From Myxococcales bacterium (GTDB lineage: Bacteria; Myxococcota_A; Polyangia; Haliangiales; Haliangiaceae): a DNA stretch of 64,000 bases. Under the pieces are notes generated by a model. It worked only from the letters and a program-made list of their open reading frames with translations, was not told the origin of the DNA and did no database searches. This document shows, one piece after another, positions 5,652 to 64,000 of this stretch. A program made the translations under genes and the position numbers. The DNA lies in contig JADKKI010000038.1 in assembly GCA_016720595.1 (NCBI GenBank), positions 104,564 to 168,563 of the forward strand, written 5' to 3'. How positions within the stretch are numbered: position 1 is the first letter of the stretch; each line of letters opens with the position of its first letter.

Positions 5652-6177
<526 letters not shown>

Positions 6178-16374: not shown

Positions 16375-19300
16375 TCAGAGCCCGCTGCGCACGCTCACGG
16401 TCCCCGCGCCGGCGTTCGAGGTGGCGAGGTCGAGCTTGCCGTCCCGGTTCCAGTCCGCGAGCACGATGCCAGCTGGTCCGTTGCCGACCGCGACCGTGGT
16501 GGCAGCCGCGAAGCCGGAGCCGGAGTTGACGAGGATGCTCGCGGAGCCGCTGCCGGCGTTGGCCACGGCCAGGTCCGGCTTGCCATCGCCGTTGACGTCA
16601 CCGATCGCGACCGCGACCGGCGTGGTGCCGGTTGGGTGGCCCACCGCGGCGGCGAACGAGGCGCCCGTGTTCGCGAGCGTGTAGACCATGCCGTCGCTCG
16701 AGCTGGTCACCGCGAGGTCGTACAGGCCATCGCCGTCGAGATCCGCGATCGCCACGCCGCTCGGGCTCGTCCCTGCCGCGAACGAGGCGGCGGCGCCGAA
16801 CCCGCCGCTGCCGGTCCCAGCCAGCACGCTCACCGTCCCGCCGCCGTTGGCGACGACGAGGTCGAGGGTCCCATTGCGATCGACGTCCGCCACCGCCACC
16901 GCGCGCGGCGTGGTGCCGACGGTGAACGCCGTCGGCGCGCCGAACGTCCCGGCTCCGGTCCCGAGCAGCACGCTGACCGTGTTCGCGGTCGAGTTAGCCA
17001 CGACCACGTCGAGGGTTCCGTTGCGATCGACGTCGGCGAGCGCGAGTGCGCGCGCTCCGGCGCCGGCGGCGAAGGTCGTGCCGGTTCCGAACGTGCCGGT
17101 CCCGGTGCCGAGGTAGATGCTGACGGTCCCGAACGTCGCGTCGGCGGTCGCGAGATCGGGCGCTCCATCGCGGTTGACGTCGCCGACGGCGATCGCGACC
17201 GGATCGATCCCGCCCGCGTAGAAGCTCGCCGGGGTGAAGCCGCTGCTGCCGCCGAGGATCACGCCGACCTGGTTGCCGGTACCGCCGGCGAACGCGAGAT
17301 CCGGGTAGCCGTTGCGGTCGAGGTCTGCGAACGCGACGCCCTGGGCGCCGACCGCGGACAGCGTGGTGTTGCCGGTGAACGCCCCGGTGGCGTTGCTCCC
17401 GACCACGCCGAGGAGCAGGCTGACGTTGGCGGCGCCAAAGGTCGCCACCGCCACGTCGACCTTGCCATCCTCGTTGAAGTCCGCGGTGACGAGGCCACGC
17501 GGGGACCCGGACACCAGGAACGACATCGGTGCGGCGAACGAGCCACCCGCGCTGGTCAACACGGTGACGGTGTTCGAGGCCTCGTTGGTGACCAGGACAT
17601 CGAGCCTGCCATCTGCGTTCGCATCGGCGAGGGTCACCGCCGAGGGGTTCGCACCGACCGTGGTCGGGCTCGCCGCCGAGAACGCACCGCCACCCACGCC
17701 GCGCGCCACGCTGATCGTGTTGGCTCCGCCGTTGGTCGCGATCACGTCGAGCAGGCCATCGTTGTCGAGATCTCCGAGGGCGACCCCGGTCGGGGCCGCG
17801 CCGACCGCGATCGTCGTCAGCGCGCCGAACGTGCCGGTGCCGGTACCGAACCGGATGCCGACGGTGTTGGTGCCGCTGCTCGCGACGGCGAGGTCGAGCT
17901 TGCCATCGCGATCGAGATCGCCCACTGCGATCCCGAGCGGCGTGGTGCCGAAGGCGACGGAGGTCGCGGCGGCGAACGCGCCGGTGCCGGAGCCGAGCAG
18001 GATGCTCGCCGAGCTCGCACCCGCGTTCGCGGTGGCGAGATCGAGGTCTCCATCACGATCCAGATCGGCCGCGACGACACTGCGCGGGCTCGCGCCGACG
18101 GGGAGCGAGGTGCCGCTCGAGAACAGGCCGGTGCCCGCACCGAGGTGGAGCCGGACCGTGTTGTCATTCGCGCAGGCCACGGCGAGGTCGAGGTCGCCAT
18201 CGCCATCGAAGTCGCCGGTCACGAGCGAGATCGGCCCAGCCCCGGTGGCGATGCCGAGCGGGGTGCCGAACGAGCCATCGCCGTTGCCGAGCAGCACGTC
18301 GACCGCATCGTTGGTGAATAGCGCGACGGCGAGGTCCTCGTTGCCGTCGCCGTTGAAGTCGCCGCGTGCGATCGCGATCGGGCGCGTGCCCGGATCCACG
18401 GGCACGTCGGTCGCGGGCCCGAGCACATCACACGTCACGGTCACGAACACCGTGGCGGTGCTGCCGCCGTTGACCATGTACGTGAACGTGTCGGGGGTGC
18501 CACCGGCGTCCGTGTTGCAATAGCCTGCGGCTGGCTGATAGGTCACGGCGAGCTGACCGCCGGTGATCACCACCGTGCCGTGCGCCGGCTGGACCACGGA
18601 GGCGACGATCTTGGGGCCACCGTCTCCATCGAGATCGTTCGCCAGCACGTCGACCGTGGTCGGCGCGCTGTTCTGGGCGACGGTGATGACGTCGTTCGTC
18701 GCGGTGGGCGGATCATCGACCGGCGTGACGATGATCGACACCGTGGCGGTGGAGCCGCCGTTGAGCGTGTACGTGTACGAGTCCGGTCCGAAATAGTTCG
18801 GGTTCGGCTGGTACTTCACACCACCGGCGACGAACGTGATCACGCCGAACGTCGGCGGCGTGGTGGAGATGATCATCTTGGGGCCGCCATCGACATCGGT
18901 GTCGTTGCCGGTCGGATCGAACGTGTAGCTCGTGTCCTCGACGAGCACGATGCTGTCGTTGACCGCCACAGGCAGGTCGTCGATCGGCGTCACGGTGATC
19001 GAGACCGCTCCCACCGAGCCGCCGTTGAGCGTGTACGTGAAGGCGTCGGGCCCCGCGTAGTTCGCGGCCGGGGTGTAGGTCACGCCGGTGCCACCGCCGG
19101 TGATCACCACGGTGCCGTGCGCCACTGGCGTCACGCTGACGATCTGGAGCGGGCCGCCATCGATGTCGAGATCATTCGCGAGGACGTCGATCGGGGTCGG
19201 GCCGTTGTCCTCGGGGAGCGTGACCAGATCCGCGACCGCGACGGGTGGATCGTCGACGGGGGTGACGGTGACCGAGACGATCGCGAGAGACCCGCCGTTG

Positions 19301-22300
19301 AGCGTGTAGGTGAACGCGTCAGGACCGGCGTAGTCCATCGCCGGCGTATACGTGACGCCGGTGCCGCCTCCGGTGATCGCCACCGAGCCATGCGCCGGCT
19401 GGGTCACGCTCATCACGAACTTGGGCCCGCCGTCGACGTCGGTGTCGTTCGCGAGGACGTTGATCGGATTGGCGCCGCTGTCCTCGAGAACGGTGGCGCT
19501 GTCGGCGATCGCGACCGGCGCCTCGTCGAGATCGAGCACGTTGATGATCAGGGCCTTCTCGAACACCTGACCGCCGCTGTCGGTGGAGCGGACGCGGATC
19601 GTGTAGACGTTCTTGGTCTCGTAGTCGAACACGCCGACCGTGGTGACCAGGTCGCCGACGATCGCGAACGAGGCGTTGTCCGTGCTGCCGACGCCCGGCA
19701 CCAGCGCGTACACGAAGGTCTGCGCCGGATCCGGGTCGACGGTGGTCAGCGTGCCGACGGTGGAGCCCGACGGAGAGTTCTCGACGATCGAGCTCGGGTT
19801 GAGGAGGATGTCGGTCGGCACGGAGCCCGTCGGCGACACGCCGGTGCCGGTGACCACGAGGGCCGGGGCGCCACCGGGTGTGGCGATCGCGGCGAGCGTG
19901 GCCATCGCCGGCCCGGCGACCACCGGGGCAAACCGGATCTGCAGGATGCACGAGGCGCCCGCGGCGAGCGCCTGGCCCGAGCACGGGTCGGTGACGAGCT
20001 GGAACGGCCCCGCGCCGAGCGTGACGACGACGGGGCCCGAGAGTACCGAGCCGGGCGAGTTCGACAGCCGGAACCGCTGGAGCCCGGAGACCAGGTTGAC
20101 CGGGATCGATCCGAAGCTCGTGCCGTCGAGCGCCGTCAGGGTCAGGCCCTCGGTGCCGGTGCCGGTGAGGCGCTCGGCGGCCGAATCGAACGGGCCCGCG
20201 CCGATCGAGAAGGTGATCGTCCCGAGCTTCGGCCCGACGCTGGTGGGTGAGAACCGCACGCCAACCGTGCAGGTCCCGCCGGCGCCGCCGATCGTGGTGG
20301 GGCAGGTGGTGCTGATCGTCGCGTACTGCGCGGGTGCGCCGAACGCCTCGGTGATCGTGAACGGCTTCGCGGTGCTGGTGTTGTTGCGGACGGTGATCAG
20401 CACGTCCTGCGGGATCGTGGTGTTGACCGTGGAGATCCCGAAGTCATACGGATCGACGACGGGGCCGCTGTTGATCGCGATGATCTCGATCCGCGGGCGA
20501 GAGATCCCGACGAGCGCGGCGGTGGCGGTGCCGCCGGGCGTGGCGGTGGCGACGAGCGTCGCCGTGCGCGTGCCGATGCCGAGCGGAAGAAATGTCATCG
20601 TGACGGTGCACGTCGCGTCGGCGGCCAGCGTGGTGCAGGTCGTCGAATCGATCGAGAACTCGGCGGCGTTGGGGCCGGTGACCGACAGGTTGATCGGGCC
20701 GGTGGTGGCCTCGCCCGTGTTCTGGACGGTGAGCGTCTGCGCCGCGGTGGGATCACCGACGGTCGTCGTCGGGAACCCGTAGCTCGATGGGATGATGATG
20801 AGGCCGCCCGGGGCGATGCCATCTCCGGTCACGGTCGCGCTGACGGCGCCGCCCGGCGATGCGGTGACGCCGATCGTGGCGGAGACGACGCCGATCGCCG
20901 TCGGGGCGAACCGGACCTGCACGTCGCAGCTGCCGTTGGGAGCCAGGGTGAGCGTGCAGGTGGTGCCGGCGAGCTGGAACGCGGAGGCACCCGCACCGGT
21001 GAGCGACACCGCCGGGATGCCCGAGACCTGCCCGCCGGTGTTGGTCACCGTGAACGTCAGCGGCGCGGACATCGCGCCCATCGCCACCGAGCCGAAGCTG
21101 CGCGCGGCGGGCGAGATCGTGATCGCTGCACCGGAGACGCCGAAGCCCGACAGCCCGGCGTTGACCGTTCCGCCCGGAGCGCCGGCGATGGTGATCGAAG
21201 CGTGGGCGACCCCGCCCGTCGTCGGCAGGAACGTCACGGACAGCGTGCACTGCGCGCCGGGGGCGAGGGCGGTGCCGCTGCAGCCATCGGAGCCGGCGAT
21301 CACCTGGAACTGGTTGGCCTGCGATCCGCCGAGCGTCGTCGACAACGGGCCCGACGTCGCGGCGGTGTTGTTGGTCACCGTGAACTGCCGCGCGGCGGCC
21401 GTCTGGCCGACGTTGGTGTTCGCGAACGCATGGGTGGAAGGCGTGATCGCGAGCTGGCCCGGTGCGATGCCCGTGCCGCCGAGCGTGGTGGCGACGCTGC
21501 CGCCTGGTGCACCGGTGAACGACAGCAGCGCCGCGTGCCCACCGACGCTGGTCGGCGTGAACGTGATCGTCACGGTGCAGCTGGTGCCACCCGCGAGCGT
21601 CGCGCCGTTGCAGGTACCCGGTGCGGCGAACATCGCGGCGCCGGCGCCGGTGAGGGTCTGTGCGAGGACGCCGGTCGGAGCGCCACCCGTGTTGAGGATC
21701 GTCGCGGTCAGCGTGGCACTGCTCTGGCCGACGACGACGGTGCCGAAGTCATTCTGCAGCGGCACGATCACGAGGCTCGCGGGCGCGATGCCGGTGCCCG
21801 TGACCGAGCCGGAGACGGTGCCGCCCGGGTTCCCGGTGATCTGGATCAGCGATGCCTTGGCACCGGTGGAGAGCGGCGTGAACCGCACCTGGAACGTGCA
21901 GCTCGCGGCGGCGGCGAGCTGGATGCCGGAGCACTGATCCACGGACCTCGTGAACTCCGCGGGATCGCTGCCGGCGGCTTGCAACGCGAGCGCGCCACTC
22001 GGCGTGCCGCCGGTGTTGGTCACCGTGAACGTCGACACCAGCGTGCTGGTCTGTCCGACGACGACATTGCCGAGCGCGCTCAGGGAGGTGGAGACCGTGA
22101 GCGCGCCGAGGGCCACACCCTGTCCTTCGAGGGTCGCGGCGACGCTGCCGCCGGGTGCGCCCGCGATCGTCAAGGTCGCGGTCTTGGTGCCCGCGCTGGT
22201 CGGTGCGAACGTGACCTCGACCATGCAGCTCTGGCCGGGCTGGAGCTTCGACATGCAGCCGGCGGTCGGCGGGACGAAGTCGGCGGCGTTGGTGCCGGCG

Positions 22301-48813: not shown

Positions 48814-53632
<4,819 letters not shown>

Positions 53633-57786: not shown

Positions 57787-58451
57787 TCGATCACGGAGGA
57801 GACCAGCTCGGATCTTCGGCGCGTGCGCTACTCGATGCGGCGCGCGAGGGCCTCGGACCGGATGCCGCCGCGATCGGCCGCGTGCGCGCGAAGGTCGGCG
57901 CGCAGGTCGGCGCAGGCGCGGCCACCGGGCTCGCGCTCAAGCTCGGGCTCGTCGGGATCGCCCTCGCCGTCGCGGTGGGTGTCGGCCTGTACGCCACGCG
58001 CGATCACGCGGCGCTCTCGGCCTCCGAGACGCCCGCGATCGACCTGCCGAGCGCGCGCAGCGAGGCCTCACCGCCGGTCGTGCGCCCGGGCGCCGCCGCC
58101 GAGGGCATGCCGGTGATCGAGATGGCCCCGCAGTCTGCGGTCCGCGCACGGCCGGTGCTGCGCGCCGACGCGCCCGTCGCGGCGGGCATCACGCTGACCC
58201 GCGAGGTCGAGCTGATCGATCTCGCGATGGCCGCGCTCCGCCGAGGAGATGCCGGCGCCGCGCTCGTCGCGATCCACACACATGCGCGCGAGACCCGCGG
58301 CGCGGGCCAGCTCGCCGAAGATGCCGCCGCGATCGAGGTCGAGGCGCTGTGCCGGCTCCACGATCCAGCTGTCGCCTCGAAGCTCGAGGCGTTCGACACC
58401 CAGTTCCCGCGCTCCGCCCAGCGGTCGCGCCTCACCACGGTGTGCAAATGA
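57783..58451 (+). CDS. Single-pass membrane protein, putative anti-sigma partner
   Basis: The 222-residue protein starts at the ATGA overlap with the sigma gene. A cytoplasmic N-terminus of about 50 residues (ARALLDAAREGLGPDAAAIG) is followed by one transmembrane helix (LALKLGLVGIALAVAVGVGL), a disordered Ala/Pro region and a C-terminal helical TPR-like part (VELIDLAMAALRRGDAGAAL). Position and topology suggest an anti-sigma role; no zinc-finger motif is visible. Confidence 0.72.
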   Translation: MIDHGGDQLGSSARALLDAAREGLGPDAAAIGRVRAKVGAQVGAGAATGLALKLGLVGIALAVAVGVGLYATRDHAALSASETPAIDLPSARSEASPPVVRPGAAAEGMPVIEMAPQSAVRARPVLRADAPVAAGITLTREVELIDLAMAALRRGDAGAALVAIHTHARETRGAGQLAEDAAAIEVEALCRLHDPAVASKLEAFDTQFPRSAQRSRLTTVCK

Positions 58452-58479
58452 AGCTGCGCCTCTCCACGTCTCTGTCTCC

Positions 58480-59838
58480 ATGGTGTCCACGCTCGCGCTG
58501 TCCTCGTTGATCGGCCTGTCCGCGTGCAGCGATCAGAGCGTCGTCGTCGGCGGCCTGCACGAGGTCGCCACGCTCCGCTCGATCCAGAACCGCAACCTCG
58601 ATCTCCTGTTCGTGATCGATGACTCGCCGTCCACCGCGGACAAGCAGGTCTCCCTCGCGAACGCGTTCCCGCAGATGATCGATGTCCTGTCCCAGATCGA
58701 TGGTGGCCTGCCGAACCTCCACATCGGCGTGGTCACCTCGGACATGGGCACCAGCGTGTCCGATGGCTCGGCCCCGGCCCCGGCGATCGGCCAGATCGGT
58801 GCCGGCGGCTGCGCGGGCGCCGGCAAGGATGGCAAGCTCCAGCGGATCGCCGAGATGACCGACGTGTTCCTGTCCGACGTCGACGGTCCCGGCGGCACGC
58901 GCGAGCGCAACTACACCGGCGAGCTGCGCGACACGTTCGGCGCGCTCGCCCGGGTCGGCGCAGGTGGCTGCGGCTTCGAGCAGCCGCTCGCCGCGATGAA
59001 GCGCGCGCTCACCAACCCGCTCAACGCGGGCTTCCTGCGCCCCACGGCGAACCTCGCGGTGGTGTTCCTCGCCGACGAGGATGACTGCTCCGCGCGCTCG
59101 ACCACGCTGTTTGGACCGGAGAACCCCGAGCTCGGCGCGCTGCAATCGTTCCGCTGCTTCCAGCACGGCGTGACCTGTGCGCAGAGCAGCGCCACGGTGG
59201 GCTCGAAGTCGGACTGCGTGGCCAGCGAGGACTCGCCCCACGTCGCGGGCACGGATGCATACGTCGACGCGCTGCTCGCTGCCAAGCTCGATCCGCGCAT
59301 GCTGATGACCGCCGCGATCGTCGGCGATCCCACGCCGGTCTCCGTCGAGCTACGCACGCCTCCCGGCGGCGGCACGCCCGCACCTTCGCTCGCACACTCG
59401 TGCGCCTACGATGGCGCGAGCGGCGTCGAGGTCGCGGATCCGGCCGTTCGCCTCGCCGGCTTCCTCGGCGCCTTCGAGGGCCGCGCAACGCTGACCTCGA
59501 TCTGCTCGGCCGATCTCGCGAACCCGCTGCACCTGATCGGCGCCTCGGCGAAGAAGCTGATGGGCGATCCGTGCCTGGACTCGAAGCAGCTCGCCGATGC
59601 GTCGGTGGAGCTGCCCGGCGTGCAGCCCTCGTGCGAGGTGGCGGACATCCGCGACAGCGCGCCGGATCGCGCCACGGTGCTCCCGGCATGTGGTGCGGGC
59701 GGCGCCGATTGCTATGCGATCGTCGCCGATGCGGCGGCGTGCCCCGCCACGCAGGATCACCTGCGGGTGCGGATCGAGCGCAGCACCGCCACCGCCGAGG
59801 ACTCGTGGACCTACGTCCGCTGTCAGCTCGCGAACTGA
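58480..59838 (+). CDS. von Willebrand A-like lipoprotein (paralogue 1)
   Basis: ATG 58480 gives 452 residues with signal VSTLALSSLIGLSAC. A vWA domain begins LLFVIDDSPSTAD, with intact MIDAS Asp47-x-Ser49-x-Ser51, so it can bind a metal and a partner protein. Cys-rich loops with GAGGCAGAGKDG, GAGGCGFEQPLAAMKRALT and DEDDCSARS follow. An ATG at 58448 forms an ATGA overlap with the previous gene and encodes MKLRLSTSLSP in another frame, so a one-base indel may hide the true start. Its neighbour at 59805 is a clear paralogue. Confidence 0.82.
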   Translation: MVSTLALSSLIGLSACSDQSVVVGGLHEVATLRSIQNRNLDLLFVIDDSPSTADKQVSLANAFPQMIDVLSQIDGGLPNLHIGVVTSDMGTSVSDGSAPAPAIGQIGAGGCAGAGKDGKLQRIAEMTDVFLSDVDGPGGTRERNYTGELRDTFGALARVGAGGCGFEQPLAAMKRALTNPLNAGFLRPTANLAVVFLADEDDCSARSTTLFGPENPELGALQSFRCFQHGVTCAQSSATVGSKSDCVASEDSPHVAGTDAYVDALLAAKLDPRMLMTAAIVGDPTPVSVELRTPPGGGTPAPSLAHSCAYDGASGVEVADPAVRLAGFLGAFEGRATLTSICSADLANPLHLIGASAKKLMGDPCLDSKQLADASVELPGVQPSCEVADIRDSAPDRATVLPACGAGGADCYAIVADAAACPATQDHLRVRIERSTATAEDSWTYVRCQLAN

Positions 59839-61168
59839 GCCTCGCGGCTGCGCTCGCCCTCGGCGCCTGCGGGGACAACCTCCAGCCGTACACCGATCCG
59901 CCGAGCATCGACGTCGTCTCGATGCCGGCCTTGCCGTGGCCGGAGGTCGACATCCTCGTGGTCGTCGATGACTCGGCGAACACCTCCAGCTTTCAGGTCA
60001 GCCTCGCGGACGGCTTCGATACGTTGCTCGATCGCCTCGAGGCCGCCGCTGGTGCCATCCGGCACGTCGGCGTCGCGACGACGGACCTGGGAGCGACCGG
60101 GAGCAACGATCCGGACCACCCCGGCGCCTCGATCGGCTCGGCGGGCAACGGAGGCTGCGCCGGACACGGCAAGGACGGCGTGCTCCAGACCTCGGGCATC
60201 GCTGCACCGGAAGGCTACGTGATCGACGAAGGGCCCACGGGCGCGCGGCAGCGCAACTACCCGGGCGAGCTGGTCGCGGCGGTTGGTCAGATGATCCGGG
60301 TGGGCGCTGGAGGCTGCGGCTTCGAACAGCCGCTCGCCGCAATCGATCGCGCGTTGACCAACCCCGTCAACGCCGGCTTCGTGCGTGCGGACGCGCACCT
60401 CGTGGTCGTGATGCTCGGCGACGAGGATGACTGCTCGTTTCGTGACCCGGCGCTGCTGGGCCCCGAGTCACCGGAGCTCGGGCCGCAGCAATCGTTCCGG
60501 TGTACTCGGTTCGGGCTCGCCTGCGACGAGGATCTGAACACCTTGGAGAGAAGCACCACTGCCGTGCCGCGGAGGACTCGCGGTTCGTCGACGGGGTGCT
60601 CGGGCACATCGAGTTCCTCCGAGGCTTGAAGCCGGGGGAGGGAGCCGTCATCGCGGCCATCGTTGGTTCGCCGGGGCCGGTGATCGTGGAGGCGCGCACA
60701 CCGCCTGGGGGTGGGCCTGCCATCAACGCGTTGGCCCATGCGTGCTCTTACACGGGGCCCACCTATGTCGCGGTCGCAGATCCTGCGGTCCGGATCGCCC
60801 AGGTCGTTCGCGCGTTCGAGAGCCACGGCGCGCTGACGAGCGCCTGTGCCGCGGACAGTGCGGTCGCCTTGACCGCGATCAGCGCGACGATCGCACAGCT
60901 GTCCCGGGATCCTGGGCGTTCCCGACACGCCCACGACAGCCTGGGCGATAGCTCCACCGAGCCCAACGTCCAGCCGAGCTGTACGGTGACGGTCGAGCGC
61001 GACGGCGTGGAGCAGCCCGTGCCGCCGTGCCCGGCGGCCGGGACGTGCTTCGAGGTGGTGGCCGATGCTGCTGCCTGTGCCGGCACGAGCGATCACCTGC
61101 GGTTGGTCGTGCACGGTCCTTCACCGCGCCCGAGCTCGATCGTTCGCGCGCGCTGCGACGTTCCGTAG
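59805..61168 (+). CDS. von Willebrand A-like lipoprotein (paralogue 2), frameshifted
   Basis: GTG 59805 (overlapping the previous gene by 34 bp) gives MDLRPLSARELSLAAALALGAC, a lipoprotein signal. The vWA motif is VDDSANTSS: Asp55-x-Ser57, but Asn59 replaces the MIDAS Ser of paralogue 1. After FGLACDEDLNTL the frame changes at 60545-60546. Inserting one G into the GG run restores GEKHHCRAAEDSRFVDGVLG and continues through ARTPPGGGPAINALAHACSY to the normal end at 61168. With the correction it has about 454 residues, like paralogue 1. It is either a recent pseudogene or a base-calling error. Confidence 0.78.
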
Positions 61169-61195: not shown

Positions 61196-62668
61196 GACAC
61201 GGTGACGCTGCGGCCGATCCGTCGGCGCTCGCGCGATGCCTCCGGCCCTGAGCGCACGGCGCTCGCGGAGGCTCCCGATGGGAGGAGAGATCGCAGCGCC
61301 CCGAGCTGGGCGACGCGCATCGGCACCAGACGTGGAGCGCGGCCCAGCACAGGCGTGGACCCAGGCGAGTCGTTCCGTGCTCGCGCGATGCCTCCGGACC
61401 CGAGCGCGCGGCGCTCGCGGAGGCTCCCGATGGGAGGAGAGATCGCAGCATGCCGAGCTGGGCGACGCGCATCGGCACCGGACGTGGAGCGCGGCTCTCG
61501 CAGGTGACGACGCAGCCGATCCGTCGGCGCTCGCGCGATGCCTCCGGACCTGAGCGCGCGGTGCTCGCGGAAGCTCCCGATGGGAGGAGAGATTGCCGCG
61601 AGCCGAGCCGGGCGACGCGCATCGGCACCGGACGTGGAGCGCGGCTCTCGCAAGTGACGACGCAGCCGATCCGTCGGCGCTCGCGCGATGCCTCCGGACC
61701 TGAGCGCGCGGCGCTCGCGGAAGCTCCCGCTGGGAGAAGAGATTGCCGCGAGCCGTGACCGACGCGGGTGCCGCTCATCGGCACCGGAGGTGGAGCGCGG
61801 CCCAGCCCAGGCGTGGGCCCAGTCGATCCGTTCCGTGCTCGCGCGATGCCTCCGGACCTGAGCGCGCGGCGCTCGCAGAAGCTCCCGATGGGAGGAGAGA
61901 TTGCAGCGTGCCGTGACCGACGCGGGTGCCGCTCATCGGCACCCGACGAGGAGCGTGGCCATCGCAGGTGACGATGCAGCCGAGCCGTCGGCGTTCGCGG
62001 AAGCTCCCGATGGGAGGAGAGATCGCAGCGCGCCGAGCCGGGCGTCGCGTATCGGCACCGGACGTGGAGCGCGGCCCGAGCAGGTGACGACTCAGCAGAT
62101 CCGTCGGCCGCGCGCGGTTGGGGGAGGAGGGAGGCGAGCGGGGGGAGGCACCAACAGGAAACACGGCCAAGCGGGACCCAACAAGCGCCAACGCGCGACC
62201 CCAAAAAAAGGCGCAAAGCCAGCGGAAGAAAAAGGAGAAAAAAACCACAAAAAAAAAAAAAACAAAGGCCAACACACACCAAAACAAAGGGCCAAAGCGA
62301 GCACCGGCCTGACCCGAGCGCGGCGGCGGGGCATTCGCGGAGGCTCCCGATGGGAGGAGAGATTGCAGCGTGCCGAGCCGGGCGTCGCGTATCGGCACCG
62401 GACGTGGAGCGCGGCCCAGCACAGGCGTGGACCCAGCGAGCCGTTCCGTGCTCGCGCGATGCCTCCGGACCTGAGCGCGCGGCGCTCGCGGAAGCTCCCG
62501 ATGGGAGGAGAGATTGCCGCGAGCCGTGAGCGACGCGGGTGCCGCTCATCGGCACCGGACGTGGAGCGCGGCCCTCGCAGGTGACGACACAGCCGAACCG
62601 TCGGCGCTCGCGCGGCACCTCCGGACCTGAGCGCGCGGCGCTCGCGGAAGGTCCCGACCGGAGGGAAG
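61196..62668. repeat. Mosaic tandem array of ~150-bp units (nine copies)
   Basis: The marker ctcccgatgggaggagaga (with few changes) recurs with its CCC at 61274, 61426, 61576, 61726, 61884, 62006, 62346, 62497 and 62653, a spacing of about 150 bp (one short unit of 122, one of 158). Conserved blocks gcgatgcctccgg, ctcccgatgggag (a CTCCC-GAT-GGGAG hairpin) and ggacgtggagcgcgg are joined by alternative modules. One is cccagcacaggcgtgg-type, the other caggtgacgacgcagccg-type, in the order A,B,B,A,B,B,(break),A,B. Both strands stay open for long stretches, but no start codon or ribosome site recurs, so I regard it as non-coding. Confidence 0.85.
62140..62310. other. A-rich, low-GC block interrupting the tandem array
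   Basis: From about 62140 the sequence turns to runs of A (up to fourteen) with scattered AC, unlike anything else in this GC-rich window, then returns to array sequence at about 62310. It has no gene. The composition suggests either an insertion of foreign low-GC DNA or low-quality consensus across a hard repeat. Confidence 0.6.
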
Positions 62669-63047
62669 TCCAGACGTGGCGGCACCATCTGGATCACCGC
62701 GCGCCGACCGCGACGTCCGAGGGCCGGACACGTGCGTGGACCGTGATCGAGCTTCAGTCCCGGCGGGGACTGGATCGCGGTTCTCGACGAGAAATCGACC
62801 GATTCTCGCGCCGCTGTGTCGCTTTGTGCTTGACGGAAATTCGCGAGCGTCGCGAGTGCGCTCGACGTGAGCGCCGATCCTGTGGTCGAGGACGCGCTCT
62901 CGTGCGCGCTGCGCGAAGACGGCGCCCTCGATCGATCGTCGACGGGTCGCGGGCCTCCGGTGCGCGCAGAGCGCAGCAGAGAGCCTCCGAAAATCCGGTG
63001 TTAGAAGTGATCGTGCGCGTGACAACCCACGCGTGTAGGAGGTCGCC
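62669..63047. other. Intergenic region between array and HNH gene
   Basis: I see no gene here. The part at 62815-62845 (gtcgctttgtgcttgacgga) is locally AT-richer and may hold a promoter. A strong ribosome site taggaggt (63036-63043) precedes the HNH GTG at 63048. Confidence 0.4.
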
Positions 63048-64000
63048 GTGTTCGATAGCGCTGCCACGCAGGAGTTTCAGACCCAGCTCGCCGATGCCTA
63101 TGCAGTCACGTGCCGCGAGCGGGACTGGATCAAGCTGCACGAGGAGATCACGTCCGTCGGCAAACAGATCGTCTGTCTCGAGGCGCGCGAGGTCGAGCTG
63201 CTGCTCGAGGCCGAAGAGACCAAGCTGTACCGGCGGATGGGGTTCCCGACGATCTACGCGTACATCGAAGGCGTGCTGCAGCACTCGCATCACGTGGCGA
63301 CCGAGCGAATGCGCGTGGCGCACGAGCTGATCGAGCTGCCGGGGATCGCCGAGGAGTTCCGCACGGGCGCACTGCCGTGGACCAGCGTGCGGGAGCTGAC
63401 CCGCGTGGCGACGCGCAAGACCGAAGATGCCTGGCTCGATGCGGCCGAGGGCAAGCTCTCGACGGACGTCCAGCAGCTGGTGCGCGGGAAGGCCAAGGGC
63501 GACCTGCCGGGTGATCCAGTGGACCCGAAGAAGATCCGGCACCGCATCGTGCTCGACGGCATCTCCGAGGAGTCGATGATGCTGTTCGCTGGCCAAGAAC
63601 ACCGCGGCGGGATGCGAAGGAAGGGACGTGCACCGACGACGAGCTTCAGGCGTGCGCTCGCCGCCGGTGCTCGATCCGTCCGGGGGACGCCGCAGGGGCA
63701 AGCCCCGGGATCAGATCGCGACCACGACATGCCGCGCGCGTGCAAGCAAGCGCACCGTGGGCGCCGGATGGAGGTCGGTGTCCCGCCGCGGAGCTGGAGC
63801 GCGTGCGCTGCGACTCGGAGGACATCGGCGATCTCTGAGCGCGAGGAGCCAGGACGCAAGCCGCAGAAGTCGATCCCCGATGCCACGCGCAGGAAGGTGT
63901 TCGTACCGCGACAAGTGCCGATGCAGTCGTGCCCGGGTAGCTCGCACCAGGTTCCTGGAGGTGCACCACATCAGGCCGCGCGCCGAGGGTGGAGGCCACG
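63048..64000 (+). pseudogene. HNH endonuclease gene, frame-broken and running off the window
   Basis: GTG 63048 with an ideal Shine-Dalgarno starts MFDSAATQEFQTQLADAYAV. Residues about 40-185 (EVELLLEAEETKLYRRMGFP, WTSVRELTRVATRKTEDAWL, HRIVLDGISEESMMLFAGQ) match the DUF222-like N-terminal domain of myxobacterial HNH endonucleases. Past about 63600 the family sequence continues only by changing frame: EGTCTDDELQACARR and AELERVRCDSEDIGDL in one frame, KPQKSIPDATRRKVFV in the original, and RFLEVHHIRPRAEGG (the HNH core) in a third, so at least three indels lie within 300 bp. The initial frame has no stop to the window edge. It is decayed or badly sequenced. Confidence 0.7.

Follow-up and report, generated by a model that had tools for sequence, protein, structure and literature searches.

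In a window of 64 kb (the whole stretch of DNA that was analysed), a reading frame that stops at 61168 and a DUF222-HNH gene that starts at 63048 are 1.9 kb apart, and a tandem array at 61196-62668 takes up most of this space. We consider that this array is probably a non-coding intergenic tandem repeat, namely a bacterial minisatellite predicted to be of the VNTR type, with a copy number that would vary between strains. As an object it is of an ordinary kind, and the evidence that its units have exchanged sequence is good. The array is real and non-random: its TRF score is 1020, and the hairpin block CTCCC-N3-GGGAG occurs in it as 8 exact matches with zero mismatches, all on the plus strand, against a mean of 0.08 and a maximum of 2 in 100 shuffles. 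Unit boundaries were set by cutting the array at the GACGTGGAGCG block, which gives nine units arranged head-to-tail in a single orientation, with lengths of 133, 152, 150, 156, 158, 116, 340, 157, and 111 nt. Five of these nine units measure 150-158 nt, two are partial, one is 34 nt short, and one has 340 nt. TRF and the alignment thus bear out a preliminary description of the locus as nine units with conserved blocks and swappable connecting segments beside the DUF222-HNH gene, and the unit size of about 150 bp given there applies to those five units and not to the rest (111, 116, 133, and 340 nt, a set from which the 157-nt unit is excluded).

When aligned, the units consist of conserved blocks and two connecting segments, each of which has two states: A or B in the first segment, and C or D in the second. 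Types A and B are the two alternatives that had been described for the first segment. Several variants had been proposed for the second (between gagagat and catcggcacc), where the alignment contains only the two classes C and D, plus point variants. The hairpin, described earlier as a CTCCC-GAT-GGGAG element of each unit, is found in 8 of 9 units in the form CTCCC-N3-GGGAG and is missing from unit 9. The order of segment types along the array is A-C, B-C, A-C, A-D, B-D, A-C', A-C', B-D, A-(cut), and the features of the locus are:

61196..61328, plus strand: unit 1 (5' partial), A-C, hairpin at 61272
61329..61480, plus strand: unit 2, B-C, hairpin at 61424
61481..61630, plus strand: unit 3, A-C, hairpin at 61574
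61631..61786, plus strand: unit 4, A-D, hairpin at 61724 with the loop gct instead of gat
61787..61944, plus strand: unit 5, B-D, hairpin at 61882
61945..62060, plus strand: unit 6, A-C', without 34 nt, hairpin at 62004
62061..62400, plus strand: unit 7, A-C', interrupted by the low-T stretch, hairpin at 62344
62110..62312 (edges approximate), no strand: the 203-nt low-T stretch of unit 7 (85 A, 62 G, 53 C, and 3 T)
62401..62557, plus strand: unit 8, B-D, hairpin at 62495
62558..62668, plus strand: unit 9 (3' partial), segment A, hairpin not conserved
62669..63047, no strand: spacer from the array to the HNH gene, codon-phase GC 0.65/0.67/0.68, no codon-phase signal
63048..63584, plus strand: open N-terminal part of the DUF222-HNH gene, DUF222 at 24.0 bits, just under the Pfam cut-off of 24.4
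63585..63999, plus strand: remainder of the DUF222-HNH gene, with homology that switches frame and with no codon-phase signal left

The minisatellite reading implies head-to-tail units that are non-coding, and this is what we found. As a coding reference we used the helicase gene at 48814-53448, in which the phase GC is 0.92/0.50/0.75 (plus-strand phases) and the GC spread between codon phases in 150-nt pieces has a mean of 0.43 and a 5th percentile of 0.26. The array lacks this codon-phase signal, with a spread of 0.04-0.14 in the five full units and of 0.17 in partial unit 1, and several unit lengths shift the reading frame. A coding tandem repeat was rejected on these two grounds, the composition and the frame that is not preserved. 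(The reference gene itself, on the minus strand, encodes a 1544-aa helicase of the Lhr type according to Pfam; it carries the PADLOC label DpdJ with 1267 bits, perhaps due to a shared helicase family.) When the array was queried in six frames against a protein collection, 7995 candidates (those with most shared words) were scored, and none came up as a relative at E 10. A stop-free frame of 490 residues does run across the array, and none of 500 mononucleotide shuffles had one as long. We did not count this frame as coding evidence because the low-T stretch is nearly A-free on the minus strand; it is also undercut by a shuffled unit that was tiled, in which at least one frame was open in 977 of 1000 cases. 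The preliminary description had the array lacking a repeated start codon, which is not so, as there are 15 ATG in it, seven of them inside the hairpin loop; no coding signal accompanies them. Folding was equally unremarkable: z-scores of 8 of the 9 units (unit 7 was not folded) on both strands lay between -1.70 and +0.96, inside the range of 40 background 150-mers (mean -0.14, sd 0.79, lowest -1.92), so that a structured RNA was rejected as well, and with it the earlier suggestion of a structured-RNA array. We also rejected an array of promoters or terminators, having found no promoter-like site and 1 terminator-like site (1.0 expected), located inside the low-T stretch.

To examine exchange between units, we applied the four-gamete test to pairs of informative two-state alignment columns; in the full column counts, unit 7 was either divided at the low-T stretch or joined over it. 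With all units, the test was failed by 72 of 171 column pairs, distributed as 42/56 A/B-by-C/D, 19/32 A/B-by-core, 3/28 core-by-C/D, 4/6 within core, 4/21 within C/D, and 0/28 within A/B. Because unit 7 borders the doubtful low-T stretch, the count was repeated with this unit omitted, and failures were then seen in 56 of 120 pairs overall, in 40 of 48 A/B-by-C/D pairs, and in none of the 28 pairs within A/B. Leaving out both unit 7 and unit 9 gave 78/153 failing pairs, including 6/45 within A/B. The A/B segment therefore moves largely as a block, although not a perfectly clean one in this last count. All four combinations of A/B with C/D are present among the units. At the left edge of the C/D segment, two neighbouring states with two identical bases between them are likewise seen in every one of the four pairings (one in unit 3, one in units 4 and 8, one in unit 5, and one in units 2 and 7). 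An assembler that joins words of at least 20 bases is not expected to generate exchange 2 nt apart, and we therefore infer from the aligned units that the exchange is real and not an assembly product. Recurrent mutation at single columns is possible, but it leaves the blocks unexplained. These data support recombination or gene conversion between units, as proposed in the preliminary description.

The same description held the order of variants to be not simply periodic, which is right for C/D (C C C D D C C D, with unit 9 cut off), an aperiodic order, and wrong for A/B, whose order A B A A B A A B A has an exact period of three (alignment columns 26, 28, and 29). Three B in nine places fall into period three in 3 of 84 placements, a count in which the A/B period is taken as one character since its columns are linked; we regard this order as suggestive, not strong. 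Mean unit identity hardly differs between lag 1 (0.850) and lag 3 (0.861), and because the lag-3 value is barely above the lag-1 value the idea of a trimer is drawn from the A/B order only. Unit 6 is missing 34 nt that the other A-type units hold between two copies of an 11-bp direct repeat (e.g., at 61223/61257 and 61675/61709). Replication slippage, or else unequal recombination, may have multiplied the units, which could at one point have been copied three at a time (as A B A). Gene conversion among the units would have moved the A/B segment and the C/D segment independently of each other, across the core that is conserved. The loss in unit 6 is a deletion between short direct repeats, of the kind expected from slippage.

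The low-T stretch that interrupts unit 7 stands apart from the rest of the window. It contains three A runs of 7 or more, the longest of 14, and runs of at least 7 A or T occur nowhere else in the 64 kb. Counted over 200 nt at a time, T falls to a minimum of 1 in the low-T part versus 12 elsewhere in the window, and A reaches a maximum of 86 versus 53. Such a composition points to a probable sequencing or assembly artefact, or to low-quality sequence. The surrounding region also appears to be of low quality, a true insertion and a true pseudogene being possible alternatives; with its sequence quality in doubt, some of the unit variants could be errors. One may go further and ascribe most of the array's arrangement to faulty assembly of a low-quality region, for which the approximately 200-nt low-T stretch, the frame breaks in the HNH gene, and one more in the upstream frame would speak. 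We think this unlikely, given that nine diverged units are resolved, that the variants differ at many linked sites, and that word-based misassembly should not yield exchange points so close together.

The genes on both sides of the array were analyzed too. The upstream frame (59840-61168) duplicates the one at 58249-59838, to which it is 45-49% identical in tblastn pieces, and has one frame change near 60527-60545. The first 179 codons of the DUF222-HNH gene form an open frame that resembles the gene's relatives; past them the gene is frame-broken (phase GC 0.71/0.67/0.72), with an HNH motif in another frame at 63889-63999 that scores 19.3 bits, below the cut-off of 21.4. This gene is presumably a bystander to the array. 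One entry of the protein collection starts with the HNH translation from the window and is encoded on a contig of 168,563 bases, so that the window does not necessarily stop where a contig stops. Viral contigs contained no confirmed match to the HNH piece or to an alignment, and plasmids no match to the HNH piece or to the frame at 58549-59838. With a full-length HNH paralogue as query, the search reached a single phage record, over 13% of that query, and five from plasmids, over 15-22%. Every one of these matches falls in the HNH part, and so do the 2 weak ones among 99 genomes around an Aminicenantes genome. DUF222 is of unknown function in Pfam, and as a predicted structure the domain at 63048-63584 models like a ParB/Noc/KorB DNA-binding domain. 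Neither DUF222 model had a Foldseek match at E 0.001, and helical folds can reach such Z by chance. The ParB HTH profile is touched by 1 of 20 family members with E 0.068, no better than unrelated single hits at 0.075 and 0.1. The family profile drew 27 PDB sequences with E values up to 10; not one is named ParB, and all align over residues 252-342, the HNH end. A link between DUF222 and ParB was not found in the portions of literature surveyed; the relevant part of one report describes a ParB CTPase fold, which is a different domain, fused to HNH and does not mention DUF222 there (PMC12704722).

This resemblance raises the possibility that the array binds a protein: the HNH nuclease encoded next to it, or one of its paralogues, would recognize the CTCCC-N3-GGGAG palindrome of eight units through a ParB/KorB-like DUF222 domain, and would thereby regulate its own gene or mark the locus. 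The hairpin arms are identical in all eight hairpin-bearing units, and 0 of their 10 columns are variable versus 51 of 150 overall (units 7a and 9 left out; hypergeometric 0.013, in a test picked after seeing the data). Such invariance could mean selection and counts against the minisatellite reading. A binding array is nevertheless improbable: besides the outcome of the ParB searches given above, the palindrome is broken in unit 9, none lies in the spacer between the array and the HNH gene, and the longest invariant blocks are not palindromic. Perfect dyads are no denser than in the background (37 in the array; mean 35, sd 11, in 41 background windows). In addition, no tandem array with a period of at least 30 was present in 11 DUF222 loci (2.5-3.9 kb; one Agrococcus genome). 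Helical phasing of the palindromes was not seen either, their spacings being mostly not near multiples of 10.5. Somewhat less likely still is a more specific version, in which DUF222-HNH proteins would be site-specific nucleases with a ParB/KorB-like domain, and the array would hold eight predicted palindromic binding sites upstream of the gene, kept alike via gene conversion while the linkers drift. DUF222 is a domain of repetitive HNH genes, including mycobacterial REP13E12, and the fold suggestion is a testable by-product of this work: if DUF222 is a DNA-binding domain of the ParB/KorB type, one would expect such nucleases to recognize a specific target sequence, and could look for it.

A structured or guide RNA array for an HNH effector, for example of a TIGR-like kind, is very unlikely. 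Tandem units, conserved blocks, exchangeable segments, and an adjoining HNH gene would suit it, and TIGR arrays are tandem with some Tas proteins carrying HNH, according to the part of the source that deals with them (PMC12045711). Against this stand fold z-scores near zero, two states per segment rather than many guides, a unit of about 150 nt versus 36 nt, and a lone Rfam match at E up to 1 (mir-9456) with 23.5 bits, far under its cut-off of 80. Pfam on the window pieces and the paralogues lists DUF222 and HNH and no Nop domain, and the TasH chain in the fold-search list was reached via the HNH part only.

We also searched for relatives of the array. In genome contigs, an exact core pattern in which 18 bases are fixed had only seven single hits, all in unrelated taxa; these loci have 0-15 12-mers per strand in common with the array, a count without a control to which the hit itself contributes up to nine. 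Three exact unit patterns had no match in viral contigs, nor did a distant blastn search with the array in phages and plasmids. A second array site was not found in the 64-kb window. The array searches were exact or limited in reach and covered collections other than related Myxococcota genomes, so relatives of the array may exist. Other repeats in the window are about 20 copies of the hexamer TCGGCG at 5885-6008 (87% matches) and tandem repeats of 147 nt (16846-17112) and 273 nt (19019-19529), each just under two copies; both belong to an open frame of 2083 aa on the minus strand and are perhaps coding domain repeats. The HNH family looks multi-copy in Myxococcales (two member pairs on equal-sized contigs of 739969 and 387386 bp), which would suit a remnant of a mobile element family related to the HNH gene (a decaying element family in the preliminary description), but this origin is just as doubtful as a guide RNA, as the array is unlike the gene or the spacer among the 15 blastn rows listed against the rest of the window (best E 0.006, none on the HNH side) and the searches above returned only the seven unrelated hits.

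Several known systems can be compared with the array, which we continue to read as a minisatellite. A CRISPR array is composed of short repeats (25-36 nt) split by variable spacers of similar size, as outlined in the section concerned of PMC12045711. By that outline, the array is not of this kind, its connecting segments being two states common to several units, in agreement with the CRISPR misfit noted in the preliminary description. TIGR arrays, in the same partial account, have 8-12 nt repeats, 9-nt spacers, and 36-nt RNAs, and Tas proteins with a Nop domain (PMC12045711). Judged by this account, the two are alike in having tandem units near an HNH protein and variable segments between conserved blocks, and they differ in layout, with full units of 150-158 nt and DUF222 here. 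The REP13E12 and DUF222-HNH repeats of mycobacteria are named together in the excerpt of PMC10589994 at hand, where repetitive DUF222-HNH genes are the point in common and no tandem 150-bp array is mentioned; the likeness thus concerns the neighbouring gene and not the array. BOX elements of Streptococcus pneumoniae are, in the portion of the source describing them, interspersed boxA-boxB(n)-boxC composites with terminal inverted repeats (PMC3049150). Going by that portion, both are modular non-coding repeats with a tandem, variable part, whereas the array here is single and made of one unit type with alternative segments. Bacterial intergenic minisatellites or VNTR, such as MIRU-VNTR, are non-coding, intergenic, and head-to-tail, with diverged units. 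The array is like them in all these respects and differs by two two-state segments that are reshuffled among units, so that it would be an example of a bacterial minisatellite that evolves like a small satellite, with blocks exchanged between its units.
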